The notes under the pieces: model-generated
Databases searched by the model: none
Told to the model about the DNA's origin: nothing
What the model saw: only the letters and a program-made list of their open reading frames with translations
Program-made: the position numbers and the translations under genes
Shown here: piece by piece, positions 31,915-62,382 of the stretch
Layout: each line of letters begins with the position of its first letter
Numbering within the stretch: position 1 is the stretch's first letter
NCBI GenBank assembly: GCA_902802535.1
Contig: CADCML010000012.1
Location: 1-64,000 of the forward strand
From: an uncultured Bacteroidia bacterium
GTDB taxonomy: Bacteria > Bacteroidota > Bacteroidia > Bacteroidales > F082
DNA length: 64,000 nt
Direction: 5' to 3'

Positions 31915-31987
31915 TGACCTGGCTGGGGCTCGAACCCAGGACCCCCACATTAAAAGTGTGATGCTCTACCTGCTGAGCTACCAAGTC
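31915..31987 (-). tRNA. tRNA-Lys (anticodon TTT)
   Basis: The minus strand folds as a 73-nt cloverleaf: acceptor GACTTGG/CCAGGTC with discriminator A, D arm TAGCTCAGCAGGTAGAGCA, anticodon loop CTTTTAA with anticodon TTT, and T arm CTGGG-TTCGAGC-CCCAG. The 3' CCA is not encoded. Confidence 0.95.
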
Positions 31988-40378: not shown

Positions 40379-40408
40379 TTGCCAGTCCAAGAAAAGTCCG
40401 TACTTTTG
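40379..40408 (+). promoter_or_regulatory. Promoter of the SRP RNA gene
   Basis: TTG at 40379-40381 and TACTTTTG at 40401-40408 are 19 bp apart. The RNA begins about 4-6 bp downstream. Confidence 0.7.
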
Positions 40409-40410
40409 CA

Positions 40411-40519
40411 TCGGGTAAGTCTTATACGACCAGCTCCCTCTGAAATCCCCCAGGACAGGAATGTAGCAAGGGTAGGAGGTCGTAGCGGTGCGATATGAGT
40501 AGCTTACCCTTCTTTTTTT
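40411..40519 (+). ncRNA. ffs: Signal recognition particle RNA (4.5S-like)
   Basis: The RNA is about 100 nt and forms one long rod: GGGTAAG at the 5' end pairs with CTTACCC at the 3' end, followed by a T run (terminator at about 40502-40519). The Ffh-binding region is at about 40447-40475, with CCAGGACAGGAA on one side and AGCAAGGGTAGG on the other; it shows the conserved GGAA tetraloop and asymmetric loop. The RNA lacks an Alu domain, as in most Gram-negative bacteria. It guides Ffh to signal sequences on ribosomes. Confidence 0.88.
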
Positions 40520-58993: not shown

Positions 58994-59001
58994 AACCATG
59001 A
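58933..59001 (+). CDS. Mini-ORF overlapping the start of the 58998 gene (leader-peptide candidate)
   Basis: The frame encodes 22 residues (MKPKKIHRQTERWSEKRLFL...) after a GGAAAG site and ends in ATGA, where its stop overlaps the ATG at 58998. This is the pattern of translational coupling or a leader peptide. Its N-terminal 16 codons are conserved in the second repeat copy at 62320, where it stops after WSEK. The strong -7 box at 58982-58989 lies inside it, so a shorter transcript would skip it. Function is unproven. Confidence 0.45.
   Translation: MKPKKIHRQTERWSEKRLFLQP
58982..58989 (+). promoter_or_regulatory. -7 box TATTTTTG before the 58998 gene, inside repeat X
   Basis: It fits TAnnTTTG only 8 bp before the ATG, so it would make a nearly leaderless mRNA. 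A second box, TATCTTTG at 58904-58911, would include the mini-ORF. Confidence 0.45.
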
Positions 59002-60275
59002 GTTGTGATGATGAGATTATCAAACGGAAATTGTATTATGACGGTCTGAAACAGGTCATCGAGCATCCTATTCCTAAAAACTATGTCAAGGAAATAGATG
59101 ATTTGCTTCAGGAAGACGATGCTGATACGGAAGAGACAAAAACCTTGCGGATGTGGAAAGAGGTGGTTGCCCCAGTGTGCAATGCCATTGTGTTCGTTCA
59201 CAACAACCGTTTCCTGTTGGACGAAAAAGAAACCATCCTCAATGAGGATGCCGACACGCCTTTCATGTCCTCCGATGAAATCTTCAAGACGCTGAAAACC
59301 TTGCTCAAAGCGACGGTCATGGAGTTTCTTTCCGTGCTGCAAATCAGTTCGGGCGAAAAGGAGGAACTGCTTGACAAGGTTGAGCATGACGACAAGGATG
59401 GTTTCAGGTCGCTGTTGGAGCGGAGCCGATGCGACACCACGGCATTGGCCCAACTTTGCACCTGCTGTTGGGACGACTCTTTCACAGCTGAAAACATCGA
59501 GGATTCTGACCTTTCATATCTGCTTGATTACATGGCAAGCAAGTTGAAAAACAGTGGTGAAGCCGATGACAAAACGATGCTTGAAGCCGTGGAGCAATGG
59601 CAGCCTTCCTCCGAGTTGATTGATTCCGACGACAGTGACGAAACCCTTGACCAATACATGTCCGACTATCGTCGTTTCATGGAGACCGAACTGGGCGTTA
59701 CCCTCCATTACTATTGGGATTGGTATGACGATTTCCTGTTGAAGGAACGCAACCTCATCGAGCCTCTCCTTGACCATCCTTTGGCTGTGGACTTGGTGAA
59801 CCGGATTTGGAAAGATTATGAGGCTAATCTTTTAGGCGGTTCCTTCTCCCTTCCCGACGACTTCTTCCACTCGAAATGCGCCGCCGATGACACGGAGCAC
59901 CTGCACATCAAACTGTCCGTTGAGGACAAGGGCACGGAGCTTTTCACCGAGTTCATCAACTATGTGGCCGAGAAGGGCTATATCGAAGACAGCCCCGCCG
60001 TGAAAAACCTTTTCGCCTACCGACTGACGGGGTATTACAGACCCGAAGGCGACCTGCCGCCCATCGTCTGGAACGGAAGAAACGGCAAGTCTTACGAGCT
60101 TATCTACCTTATCCGTTACCTCTGCGACCGTGGCGACTACAAGAAAATGCGCCGTTTCTTCGAAGGCCCTGAATGGTTGAAGGAGAAAGACAGCAGCTAT
60201 GCCCACTCAGCAGATACCGAGTTCAGAAGAAAAATGGCGGAGATTTATCCTGGGATTTGTGAGTTCAAGAAGTGA
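58998..60275 (+). CDS. Protein of unknown function, 425 residues
   Basis: The cytoplasmic protein has no signal or membrane segment and is acidic and mostly helical. It contains SDDSDETLDQYM in a linker near 215-230. The C-terminal ~130 residues (GTELFTEFINYVAEKGYIEDSPAVKNLFAYRLTGYYRPE...WKGRNGKSYELIYLIRYLCDRGDYKKMRRFFEGPEWL, EFRRKMAEIYPGICEF) resemble a small domain that I have the impression recurs at the ends of hypothetical proteins in Bacteroidetes accessory regions; I cannot name it. Its promoter lies in the mobile-looking repeat X. Confidence 0.7.
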   Translation: MSCDDEIIKRKLYYDGLKQVIEHPIPKNYVKEIDDLLQEDDADTEETKTLRMWKEVVAPVCNAIVFVHNNRFLLDEKETILNEDADTPFMSSDEIFKTLKTLLKATVMEFLSVLQISSGEKEELLDKVEHDDKDGFRSLLERSRCDTTALAQLCTCCWDDSFTAENIEDSDLSYLLDYMASKLKNSGEADDKTMLEAVEQWQPSSELIDSDDSDETLDQYMSDYRRFMETELGVTLHYYWDWYDDFLLKERNLIEPLLDHPLAVDLVNRIWKDYEANLLGGSFSLPDDFFHSKCAADDTEHLHIKLSVEDKGTELFTEFINYVAEKGYIEDSPAVKNLFAYRLTGYYRPEGDLPPIVWNGRNGKSYELIYLIRYLCDRGDYKKMRRFFEGPEWLKEKDSSYAHSADTEFRRKMAEIYPGICEFKK

Positions 60276-60281
60276 AAATTT

Positions 60282-60341
60282 AGAAAAACCAGCAAAATAG
60301 TTGCAAGGAATGGAAAAAGTTGTTTATCTTTGCAGCGTCAG
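60282..60341 (+). promoter_or_regulatory. Promoter-bearing 60-bp repeat, copy 1 (TTG, TATCTTTG)
   Basis: The sequence shares about 56 of 60 positions with 60751-60810, including TTG (60301-60303) and TATCTTTG (60325-60332), spaced 21 bp. No gene of normal size follows, which points to a small RNA. Confidence 0.6.
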
Positions 60342-60437
60342 AAATGACTAATCCGGTAATTTCCGCGTGGGAGTAAGACTACACCGCCCCTGCTCCAAAA
60401 TTAAAGGATGGAGACTTGCAACGGCCTCCATCTTTTA
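60338..60437 (+). ncRNA. Candidate small RNA P1
   Basis: After the promoter the sequence can fold: GTCA-GAAA-TGAC (60337-60348) at the 5' end and a terminator-like 11-bp stem AAAGGATGGAG/CTCCATCTTTT (60403-60436). About 100 nt without an open frame. Purely predicted from promoter, hairpins and lack of coding. Confidence 0.4.
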
Positions 60438-60499
60438 TTTTCCGAATTCCTTGCGGAACTTCCTGACGAAACATGTCCAATACAGCCTTGAGCACATAA

Positions 60500-60590
60500 A
60501 AAAAGCGTGTAGTTAATCCATGCCGAAGCCGATCTACACGTTTTTAAACGAAAAACGCAGTTAATCCATGCCGAAGCCGATCTGCGTTTC
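60500..60590 (-). ncRNA. Candidate small RNA with twin hairpins of identical loop (minus strand)
   Basis: Downstream (leftward) of a minus-strand -7 box TAATTTTG (60596-60603), the RNA forms two hairpins. H2 (60553-60589): stem AAACGCAG/CTGCGTTT. H1 (60501-60545): stem CGTGTAG/CTACACG plus A-T pairs, followed by a run of T, the shape of an intrinsic terminator. Both enclose the same 21-nt loop (60561-60581 and 60513-60533; minus strand begins ATCGGC and ends GGATTAA). The stems differ but pair perfectly in each, so the loop sequence and the hairpin are both selected. A relative is at 62100-62152. Confidence 0.6.
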
Positions 60591-60593
60591 ACG

Positions 60594-60661
60594 CTGCAAA
60601 ATTACAACAAAATCCAAAACGCCGCCATAAACATTGAAAAATAATTCCCGAAATTAGGGAA
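60594..60661 (-). repeat. 68-bp promoter repeat of the twin-hairpin RNA, copy Y
   Basis: Nearly identical (one mismatch) to 62155-62222. On the minus strand it ends in TAATTTTGCAG, a -7 box directed at the hairpin RNA. Confidence 0.75.
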
Positions 60662-60750
60662 GTTGCTTGGCAAAACCTTATTTCCACTACTATAATCTCT
60701 GCTGACATATACGGGTTGGCTATTCACTACTATCATCACGAGATTTTTTT

Positions 60751-60810
60751 GAGAAAACCAGCAAAATAGTTGCAGGGAATGGAAAAATTTGTTTATCTTT
60801 GCAGCGTCAT
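60751..60810 (+). promoter_or_regulatory. Promoter-bearing 60-bp repeat, copy 2
   Basis: See 60282-60341; -33 TTG at 60770-60772, -7 TATCTTTG at 60794-60801, spacing 21 bp. Confidence 0.6.
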
Positions 60811-60914
60811 TCAGAGGAATTCGCAGAAAGGACGACAACCTTTATGACCTTTGCGGTCGTTTCGAGCCTCAACATAAACGAGCCATCACATCTTTGTGGT
60901 GGCTATGTTTTTTG
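60808..60914 (+). ncRNA. Candidate small RNA P2
   Basis: About 107 nt after the second promoter copy. It ends in a strong terminator: AACATA...GCCATCACA TCTT TGTGGTGGC TATGTT plus a T run (60871-60914). A GACGAC/GGTCGTT stem lies upstream (about 60831-60860). The terminator overlaps the 3' end of the convergent gene 60886-61314, so the RNA could also act in antisense there. Confidence 0.5.
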
Positions 60915-61314
60915 TGTCAGGTTTTTGCGGGACGGTGATGCAATACTGAACCATTTCCTGAGTGGAACGCTGAAGTCCAACCGTGAGTTTCACCTCGCCA
61001 TGTTTCAATATGATCAGCTTATCAAATTGTTTTTGGTTACGTGTCATTCTATTGGTCGCTTTTTCGCCTATTATGACAGCTTTTTCAAGTATCTCAGTTA
61101 GCCGGAAGACCGCAAGCGTTGACTCATAGTTTCGTGCCGCCTTTTCGTATGTTTCGTTGATGGAGAGAAACTTCACATGAATGAACGCGCCTAAATTGTT
61201 GTTCCAAATCTTCTTTTCGGGATTTTCTGAAATCCACTGGGAATAAAAATCCTTGATTAGCTTTTCACGAGCCTTGATTTCGTCTTTTGTTCGTCCTTTT
61301 GGAATGTCGCCCAT
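60886..61314 (-). CDS. Small protein of unknown function, paralogue of 61558-62028
   Basis: The 142-residue protein has a basic N-terminus (KGRTKDEIKAREKLIKDFYSQWI), a middle STLAVFRLTEILEKAV and an end EVKLTVGLQRSTQEMVQYCIT. The neighbouring divergent gene keeps the same order (IKAEYIKLMEKL, STYAVKHLETIIKEAV, FTIKLVMGIKSDGRHVQYSV). I do not recognise the family; copies in several Bacteroidetes accessory regions are my impression, not checked. Its 3' end overlaps a terminator of a plus-strand RNA. Confidence 0.7.
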   Translation of the reverse strand: MGDIPKGRTKDEIKAREKLIKDFYSQWISENPEKKIWNNNLGAFIHVKFLSINETYEKAARNYESTLAVFRLTEILEKAVIIGEKATNRMTRNQKQFDKLIILKHGEVKLTVGLQRSTQEMVQYCITVPQKPDTKNIATTKM

Positions 61315-61557
61315 CGCTTGGTTCTTTGGCGCAAAAGTACGAATAATTCCGACAAAACTTTATTTCCGCTTCAAGTTTACTACAATCACCAAATTTTTGA
61401 TCAGATTATCTTTCTTTTTACCAAACAACAAATTTACCTGTAAACCAAACACATATCCGACAGCAAACGACTACTGTCGACAACAAACGTTTAATCAACG
61501 GCTTAGTCTTGACAGATGGTTTTTCTTTGCGGTAGAAAAACTAAAAGTATTATCGTT
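61315..61557. other. Divergent intergenic region of the paralogous pair
   Basis: The 243-bp gap contains no coding frame. AT-rich, with repeated ACAAACA-type words and a TTTTTCTTTGC box before the 61558 gene that lacks the TA of a standard -7 box. No convincing promoter is identified for either gene. Confidence 0.4.
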
Positions 61558-62028
61558 ATGGAAACACCTGAATTTGTTTCTGGCATCCCAACAGACAAGC
61601 ATGCCTCTGCACAGAGAAGAATGATTATCAAGGCTGAGTACATCAAATTGATGGAGAAACTACAAAACAAGTACGGGAAGAAAGCCGTTTTTAACGAGTT
61701 TCTTCAGACCGATGTTTACATCATAATGAGAGAAAGTGAGAAAAAAGCCAGTAATAGTGCGGCTTTCAACTGGCAATCGACATACGCAGTAAAGCACTTG
61801 GAGACTATCATCAAAGAGGCAGTCCCCATGGAAGGCAAACCTATTTATACACTTCCAAAACCCACAGGAAAACAAATGGAATTCAAGTATGTCAATATGG
61901 CGACATTGTATTACACCTTTCATTCCACTGAGTATGAACATCTCAATTTCACCATAAAATTGGTGATGGGCATTAAGAGCGACGGCAGGCATGTCCAATA
62001 CAGTGTCAATAAGATTGAATTAATCTGA
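61558..62028 (+). CDS. Small protein of unknown function, divergent paralogue of 60886-61314
   Basis: The 156-residue protein (start ATG 61558) shares motif order with the gene at 60886-61314 over its full length (see there), with the end LMGIKSDGRHVQYSVNKIELI. No signal or membrane segment. The upstream in-frame extension from 61516 is not conserved. Strong terminator after it. Confidence 0.7.
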   Translation: METPEFVSGIPTDKHASAQRRMIIKAEYIKLMEKLQNKYGKKAVFNEFLQTDVYIIMRESEKKASNSAAFNWQSTYAVKHLETIIKEAVPMEGKPIYTLPKPTGKQMEFKYVNMATLYYTFHSTEYEHLNFTIKLVMGIKSDGRHVQYSVNKIELI

Positions 62029-62031
62029 AAA

Positions 62032-62100
62032 AAAAGCATCCTGTAATAAAGTCGTCATTGCTTTCGCAATCGCTTGTACAGGATGCTTTTGTATGTACCG
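62032..62100. terminator. Terminator after 61558-62028
   Basis: AAAAGCATCCTGTA (62032-62045) pairs perfectly with TACAGGATGCTTTT (62087-62100); an inner ATTGC-TTTC-GCAAT hairpin lies in the loop. It also bounds the leftward RNA candidate. Confidence 0.8.
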
Positions 62101-62152
62101 AAAAGCAGTTAATCCGACTTATTTGTTTGCAGATCTGCCCTCAGCTTTTTCT
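62100..62152 (-). ncRNA. Second member of the twin-hairpin RNA family, degenerate
   Basis: Behind the same 68-bp promoter block (-7 TAATTTTG on minus, plus coordinates 62158-62165) lies a hairpin with stem GCAG/CTGC and a loop that begins ATC and ends GGATTAA, as in 60553-60589, but with a different loop middle and only one hairpin. It could be a diverged family member or a decaying copy. Confidence 0.45.
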
Positions 62153-62154
62153 GC

Positions 62155-62222
62155 CTGCAAAATTACAACAAAATCCAAAACGCCGCCATAAACATTGAAA
62201 AATAATTCTCGAAATTAGGGAA
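62155..62222 (-). repeat. 68-bp promoter repeat of the twin-hairpin RNA, copy Z
   Basis: Second copy of the 60594-60661 block, one mismatch. Confidence 0.75.
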
Positions 62223-62240
62223 AGCCGTTTGGCCAACCCC

Positions 62241-62382
62241 CTATTTCCACTATAAGTTTACTATAATCCCCGCCAGCATGGGCGGCTTGCCTATCTTTGC
62301 CTCCAAAACTTGAATGAAAGATGAAACCGAAGAAAAAACACCGACAAACTGAGCATTGGTCTGAAAAATGACTATATTTGCA
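62241..62382. repeat. Dispersed 140-bp repeat X, second copy
   Basis: See 58853-58993. Here the mini-frame MKPKKKHRQTEHWSEK stops after 16 codons and the second box is TATATTTG (62373-62380), with no intact gene behind it. Confidence 0.8.

Follow-up and report, generated by a model that had tools for sequence, protein, structure and literature searches.

Some type I toxin–antitoxin systems, among them txpA/ratA and bsrG/SR4, have toxin and RNA genes that overlap at their 3' ends. Type III systems are presented, in the accessible part of their description, as bicistronic operons in which a single promoter is followed by RNA repeats, a terminator and then the toxin, and their RNA antitoxins are divided into three families (PMC5086642). 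For the MuF polymorphic toxins of temperate phages an immunity protein is expected, as stated in excerpts of the source (PMC5576092), and the precise functions of the large polyvalent protein-associated domains LPD1-40 remain elusive, the available portion of that source mentioning no RNA partner for LPD3 (PMC5512222). Here we analyze a locus in a 64,000-nucleotide stretch of DNA (the window) from an uncultured Bacteroidia bacterium of the Bacteroidales lineage F082 (assembly GCA_902802535.1, contig CADCML010000012.1, positions 1 to 64,000, forward strand), which encodes a predicted small RNA with two hairpins, RNA2. RNA2 seems to belong to a large group of small RNAs, present in gut Bacteroidales and in their phages, that each stand opposite a probable toxin gene, and we consider it likely that it is an RNA antitoxin (immunity) gene and that such RNAs bind and neutralize toxins that are probably of the nuclease type.

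The proposed module would consist of a small LPD3-family protein and a short structured RNA on the opposite strand that converges on its stop codon, with the last hairpin of the RNA doubling as a terminator. Like the type III systems ToxIN, CptIN and TenpIN, it has a small structured RNA, often in repeated units, that we infer to block an RNase-like toxin. Unlike them, the RNAs of the window are convergent and have their own promoter-like box instead of coming first in an operon, the proteins are LPD3 or CdiA_C-like, unlike hairpins are combined in mixed arrays, and RNAs also stand beside phage MuF proteins. The protein is LPD3 by profile, and no toxin of the ToxN, CptN or TenpN kind was recognized, ToxN being absent among the Protein Data Bank (PDB) matches listed. 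As to the tandem-repeat pseudoknot RNAs of type III, the units here are twin or mixed and are predicted as nested hairpins, the only structures that the folding program considers, pseudoknots lying beyond it. Since gene order and protein kind both depart from type III, we set the modules outside it despite their similar presumed working. With txpA/ratA and bsrG/SR4 they share convergent genes that meet at a terminator, but they differ in their conserved covarying hairpins, in upstream units of other classes and in RNAs that are retained after gene loss or at the opposite end of the gene. With MuF polymorphic toxins, as far as the excerpts describe them (PMC5576092), the phage members share a conserved MuF N-terminus, an exchangeable C-terminus and an adjoining antidote, but many of the C-termini adjoin an RNA and not an immunity protein. 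Compared with LPD3 in the available portion of PMC5512222, the partner protein is of the same family and the RNA partner is the difference. Literature searches on LPD3, RNA antitoxins, type III and Bacteroidota, and MuF or polymorphic toxins with RNA, which covered titles and abstract openings, with preprints and most subscription journals outside, did not find the arrangement described. A search on DUF3800-type RNA motifs, a possible analogy, yielded only unrelated work.

The twin-hairpin RNA and its homologues

The features of RNA2 are as follows:
60497..60594, minus strand: RNA2, a predicted RNA of about 95 nt with two class-A hairpins (fold, homologues, covariation)
60597..60604, minus strand: RNA2 promoter box of the -7 type, TAATTTTG (sequence; a box is present in 37/37 distinct class-A arrays)
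60553..60589, minus strand: H2, the upstream class-A hairpin, stem AAACGCAG/CTGCGTTT (fold, covariation)
60506..60540, minus strand: H1, the terminal class-A hairpin, stem CGTGTAG/CTACACG (fold, covariation)
60504-60498, minus strand: T7 run after H1 (sequence)
60594..60661, minus strand: RNA2 promoter block of 68 bases, repeated at 62155-62222 (99%)

RNA2 is well supported by comparison as a small RNA with a promoter-like box, which we take to be of the -7 type from the Bacteroidetes consensus, two covarying hairpins and a terminator. A sequence-only reading of the window had proposed a small RNA at this place, and its promoter-like box, its two hairpins with different and perfectly paired stems and its T-run were all seen on the minus strand; the 68-bp block that it called conserved has the second copy listed above, at 99% over 68 bases. 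The T-runs of homologues agree with its assignment of H1 as terminator, and on the other strand H1 may also end the mRNA of the partner gene. H1 and H2 have different stems and an identical core (family D2, 100%), so that the claimed identity of the loops is real and extends to 25 nt, but the proposed 21-nt loop is not simply exposed: fold prediction gives the core a further structure of AUC/GAU plus GC(UUCG)GC with a 3' UAA bulge. Across the assembly, which has 3.7 Mb and is 85% complete, the core matched only the H1 and H2 places at up to three mismatches, and a reversed-pattern control gave 0 matches. As to whether the target is RNA or protein, the evidence favors a protein, and an antisense target was not found in two limited tests, this search with the core and the pairing of the first hairpin with the 5' region of the gene. 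The folding energy of the 98-nt RNA is -27.8 kcal/mol against -20.5 +/- 2.8 in shuffles (z -2.56), with 3/200 shuffles folding as well. Within 60280-62300 none of the Rfam covariance models matched at E <= 1, and on 12 related loci they gave four sub-threshold matches, all to unrelated families.

A DNA search located the RNA in 10/60 genomes including its own, all of one genus. Compensation of the stems, noticed before within the one locus, is confirmed and reaches wider, to 38 distinct homologous hairpins in which six of the eight outer pairs changed on both sides. Double-changed cells numbered 68 against 22 in shuffles and the covariation score was 0.428 against 0.197 (0/500 shuffles reached either value; slid controls had a maximum of 0.146). 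Two coarser measures were not outstanding, namely the plain count of pairs with a double change (reached by 63/500 shuffles) and further pair types (157/500). Under strict filters, a covariance model built from the 38 hairpins detected 64 hairpins in 31/99 genomes of the genus, its own members among the matches.

The sequence-only reading had missed the partner, a convergent LPD3-type gene at most homologous loci, of which the last 14 codons are left here. An LPD3-type match lay within 600 nt of 62/64 class-A hairpins (a rough chance estimate is ~0.1%), and 54/64 were convergent and within 200 nt of an LPD3-type 3' end; in these counts protein places come from part of the match lists, broken genes count as matches, and H1 and H2 are linked via the neighboring gene3, their own partner being a stub. 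The class-A hairpin at G031:C34 has a promoter-like box and a T-run, with no LPD3-type match among those listed. A weak class-A match at G070:C21:375692-375730 (L290; E 9e-4), which lacks an LPD3-type gene in its vicinity, is probably due to chance.

Convergent partner genes and their proteins

Among 110 unique intact LPD3-type genes, in a set for which some loci were fetched through the RNA, 107 are followed, 25-260 nt beyond the stop codon, by a TA..TTTG box in antisense orientation. The same test gave 28/110 on the sense strand and 54/211 for control genes (p 1.3e-39), the controls being what remained of 301 genes after removal of 90 near LPD3 matches. For loci fetched by protein alone, the box was found at 97/100 and the two-box motif at 58 versus 9 of 100. 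A strict two-box motif was present antisense downstream of 58/117 LPD3-like genes, in the sense direction at 10/117, and antisense at 26/198 controls. All three box-negative genes have an RNA nearby; two belong to a horse-gut lineage in which the twin-hairpin RNA is found 5' of the gene, and the third has an extended frame. A wider sample of the order had LPD3 in 21/295 genomes, 18 of them outside the genus; of 22 loci read, three were at a contig edge, and the antisense box was found by sequence at 13/19, two of the 13 from the genus itself. Beside the LPD3 genes of two loci from other Bacteroidales families (L230, L232), a further RNA class, built of a unit that occurs twice in nearly identical form, was seen by eye. 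The named records of partner proteins are Bacteroidales or Bacteroidia, many from ruminants or other herbivores (32 loci).

The class-A protein L166 matched LPD3 (PF18798) with 25.9 bits, just below the cut-off of 27, over profile positions 6-111 of 114, and 12/25 members of the class-A protein set match it at E <= 1. Profile comparisons gave 97% for A2 against A3 and 65.5% for A7 against A3. By the curated profile, the protein partner is assigned to the LPD3 family on its sequence. Other Pfam families in the class-A set, DUF4912 (8/25 members) and SUKH_6 (six members; best E 0.002), were weaker than LPD3 and were set aside. NCBIfam gave only matches far below cut-off, PADLOC a single weak partial match (SspF, E 1.5e-4), and plasmids no match for the class-A protein. 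The AlphaFold model of the class-A protein (mean pLDDT 89) had five matches to viral structures at E <= 0.001, all in proteins of at least 1000 residues, the first two being named polyvalent proteins and the rest having other names or none. For the LPD3 domain of the MuF protein, the predicted fold places helices first and four antiparallel strands after them (pLDDT 90). BECR RNases are described as helices and then strands in the available portion of PMC5512222, and the agreement in order suggests an RNase-like effector. A second kind of partner is represented by gene1: Pfam detects no LPD3 in it, but its RNA is convergent in the same way.

Mixed arrays, gene loss and phage MuF proteins

RNA2 is one of four RNAs in the window, whose other features are:
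60325..60440, plus strand: RNA1 with a -7 box (60325-60332), convergent partner of gene1 (homologues)
60285-60340, plus strand: RNA1 promoter repeat, matching 60754-60809 on the RNA3 side (56 bp, 96%)
60435..60470, minus strand: gene1 remnant, the last 11 codons FVRKFRKEFGK and the stop of a CdiA_C-like gene (RNA1 homologue loci)
60472..60516, plus strand: gene2 remnant, the last 14 codons HVQYSLEHIKKACS and the stop of a class-A LPD3-type gene, ending inside H1 (homologue comparison)
60794..60915, plus strand: RNA3, class L, -7 box 60794-60801, terminator overlapping the gene3 stop (fold, sequence)
60886..61314, minus strand: gene3, an intact 142-aa LPD3 protein (Pfam PF18798, E 2.8e-10, 40.8 bits, cut-off 27)
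61516..62028, plus strand: gene4, intact LPD3-type, partner of class B, probably starting near 61560 (A1/A3 family; 44% identity to the first row; alone against Pfam, no match)
62034..62152, minus strand: RNA4, a class-A hairpin (model match 62100-62143) and then a class-B terminal hairpin (fold, covariance model)
62165-62158, minus strand: RNA4 -7 box (sequence)

The right unit, RNA3 (+), gene3 (-), gene4 (+) and RNA4 (-), is apparently intact throughout. In the left unit, RNA1 (+), gene1 (-), gene2 (+) and RNA2 (-), the RNAs have stayed complete, whereas only 3' stubs of the two partner genes are left. These stubs adjoin at 60470-60472: the alignment with RNA1 homologues extends to 60470 or 60471, and in class-A homologues the gene runs on past the codon equivalent to 60472. 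Promoter blocks are common to RNA1 and RNA3 and to RNA2 and RNA4. The simplest account is that one deletion took both protein genes and spared both RNAs. Such a deletion would have brought the 3' ends of two divergent toxin genes together and made orphans of the antitoxin RNAs, which likely persist as protection from toxins that related strains make or phages inject.

Such losses recur among homologues. All 37 distinct class-A arrays with at least 700 nt of sequence beyond them have a TA..TTTG box at most 160 nt upstream. An intact LPD3-type gene accompanies 29 (26 on the 3' side, three in the horse-gut lineage); at the eight with a broken gene, the last class-A stem has at least seven contiguous pairs and the box is present. 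RNA1 has 26 listed places in 18/99 genomes, partial matches included, and gene1 is intact, by open reading frame (ORF), at 7/12 of the RNA1 loci read. Among the 110 genes no intact one was seen without an RNA nearby, while RNA without an intact gene is common, as one would expect if they are toxin and antitoxin. The RNAs fall into at least 11 hairpin classes, the number met in 123 unique downstream regions, of which 75 have at least one; of the genes of at least 120 residues without a recognized class, 44/46 have a box, so the class set is incomplete. The mixed arrays seen are A-C, C-B, F-B, F-B-A and G-F-C-H (four classes, L127), and RNA4 is A-B. Among protein clusters at 65% identity, 10/12 have one terminal class, as do 7/9 of the multi-member ones. 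One chromosomal neighborhood, beside a gene that is presumably helicase-like, was seen by eye to hold different RNA-protein cassettes across species (G002:C16 (L014), G000:C33 (L025), L049, L058, L060), which suggests cassette exchange at a hotspot.

The MuF-LPD3 protein as query retrieved 19 phage contigs, and its domain was matched by 2/50,697 phage records. Searches of viral contigs with A1 and A2 found no relatives, and the phage link runs via MuF-LPD3 only. Of the best 80 of 523 matches in a wider MuF scan, 61 were unique readable MuF proteins of at least 300 residues; the others were too short or lay at an edge (13), or were duplicates or ran off the contig (six). The antisense box accompanies 29/37 with a C-terminus lacking HExxH (non-zincin) and 3/24 with HExxH (zincin); by eye, the three zincin-side boxes seem to lie inside the following gene. 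The two-box motif was found at 28/37 non-zincin MuF genes versus 4/312 other genes of the same contigs. The Phage_Mu_F domain (PF04233) was over cut-off in all 9/9 proteins scanned, followed by several different C-termini, and by this combination of domain and variable C-terminus the phage members are classed, from sequence, as MuF polymorphic toxins. At E <= 0.1, 13 RNA-bearing C-termini gave four matches to CdiA_C and two to LPD3, with only L313 over cut-off. Among the eight RNA-less non-zincin C-termini, Pfam on seven (L334 was unscanned) gave four papain-fold, one ADP-ribosyltransferase and two unnamed. The C-termini named by Pfam are thus LPD3 or CdiA_C-like when RNA-bearing, and papain-fold or ADP-ribosyltransferase when RNA-less. 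A separate Pfam scan found LPD3 over cut-off in L270 and weak CdiA_C in L279 and L280, and named no C-terminus in L274, L275 or L284.

Hairpins of 5 bp with a 7-nt loop and U at position 33, as in anticodon arms, occurred in 13/33 phage RNAs versus 3.2 in shuffles (maximum 8, 100 rounds); U at 32 (11) and at 35 (12) was also high because related RNAs share loops, which weakens these statistics. Examples beside MuF genes are L329 UUGCAAA, L270 UUGUAGU, L071 UUGUAAU, L287 UUGCAGU and L303 UUCUCAC. The transfer RNAs (tRNAs) of the fetched DNA, 22 matches, included no Tyr or Cys for comparison, and in class A the anticodon-arm pattern did not emerge. Substrate mimicry by the phage hairpins is possible, as a lead.

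Competing readings of the locus

Comparison across loci establishes the structure with its covariation, the near-constant linkage to LPD3-type genes, the mixed arrays, the RNAs that outlast their genes and the MuF arrangement. From these we infer transcription, toxicity of the proteins, direct binding and neutralization: the hairpins would bind the cognate protein and block its activity, and since RNAs are strung from several hairpin classes, one transcript could neutralize several toxins. A more general RNA-based immunity of gut Bacteroidales and their phages against nuclease-type polymorphic toxins seems to us evenly poised between right and wrong. In it, every toxin domain would have its class-specific convergent antidote, phages would bear such toxins on the MuF head protein with the antidote RNA alongside, and the mixed arrays gathered by bacteria would go on protecting them once the toxin gene has gone; some phage RNAs may be decoys of tRNA anticodon arms (L329 UUGCAAA with its 5-bp stem), which would hint at anticodon-nuclease toxins. 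If the antitoxin reading is true, a set that is modular, widespread and unrelated, and that has two or more protein kinds, mixed arrays and phage versions, would considerably widen the RNA-antitoxin kind, LPD3 domains would gain a testable role, and the survival of lysogens carrying such MuF toxins without an evident immunity protein would be explained. Orphan immunity genes are a known kind of orphan antidote, and orphan RNA arrays would be their RNA counterpart.

Several points weigh against this reading. The two-box motif stands at only about half of LPD3-type genes (58/117; 58/100), and TA..TTTG alone is frequent (54/211 control genes). The hairpin classes are 13 self-written regular expressions, and because the terminal hairpin adjoins or runs into the end of the gene, simple linkage accounts in part for class and protein being inherited together. 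Chromosomal loci are mostly metagenome-assembled genomes, and some broken genes may be assembly errors. Neither the class-A nor the MuF-LPD3 model matched the PDB at E <= 0.001, so 'nuclease' for LPD3 relies on polyvalent-protein context and topology. CdiA_C is weak in 5/6 members of the gene1 family (best E 3.2e-4, below the Pfam cut-off) and below cut-off in every MuF case except L313. No convincing domain is present in 7/13 RNA-bearing MuF C-termini, and among the RNA-less non-zincin ones 2/8 are unnamed and 1/8 (L334) is outside the scan.

The RNA might instead act as in type I, destabilizing the mRNA of the convergent toxin by pairing with its 3' end, and its hairpins would then be only terminators. 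Terminator overlap of this sort is familiar from txpA/ratA and bsrG/SR4, and the class-A gene has its last codons and its stop within H1, where RNA and mRNA are therefore complementary. Antisense action, however, needs no conserved cores with compensated stems, and the first hairpin paired with the 5' region of the gene no better than mononucleotide shuffles did (mean z -0.02 over nine loci; lowest -1.59, L166). Because of the covariation, the mixed arrays, whose upstream hairpins of other classes lie past the local gene end, and the horse-gut RNAs on the 5' side of the gene, we consider type I pairing unlikely. A similarly low probability is given to the RNA as partner or substrate of an RNA-processing or RNA-guided effector, or as regulator of protein delivery. 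Near-constant linkage of RNA and protein would suit any ribonucleoprotein, and type III toxins also process their own RNA, according to the accessible part of PMC5086642; but class A has no variable guide-like segment that we could see, its core being conserved and its stems varying, and the RNAs outlive the protein gene. LPD3 and CdiA_C-like proteins moreover share the arrangement, while papain-fold, ADP-ribosyltransferase and zincin C-termini of MuF proteins mostly go without. That these are ordinary convergent neighbors with a shared bidirectional terminator and chance promoter boxes is very improbable. Convergent genes often share terminators and the box is common among controls, but 107/110 stands against 54/211 (p 1.3e-39) and, in phages, 28/37 against 4/312, and the covariation and the horse-gut lineage, whose RNA has been kept at the opposite end of the gene, also speak against mere neighborhood.

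An ORF of 425 aa adjoins the array at 58998-60275 (+); neither Pfam (E <= 0.001) nor NCBIfam (E <= 1) has a match for it. The window also holds ordinary RNAs, a Bacteroidales small signal recognition particle RNA at 40406-40513 (+) and a tRNA at 31915-31987 (-).
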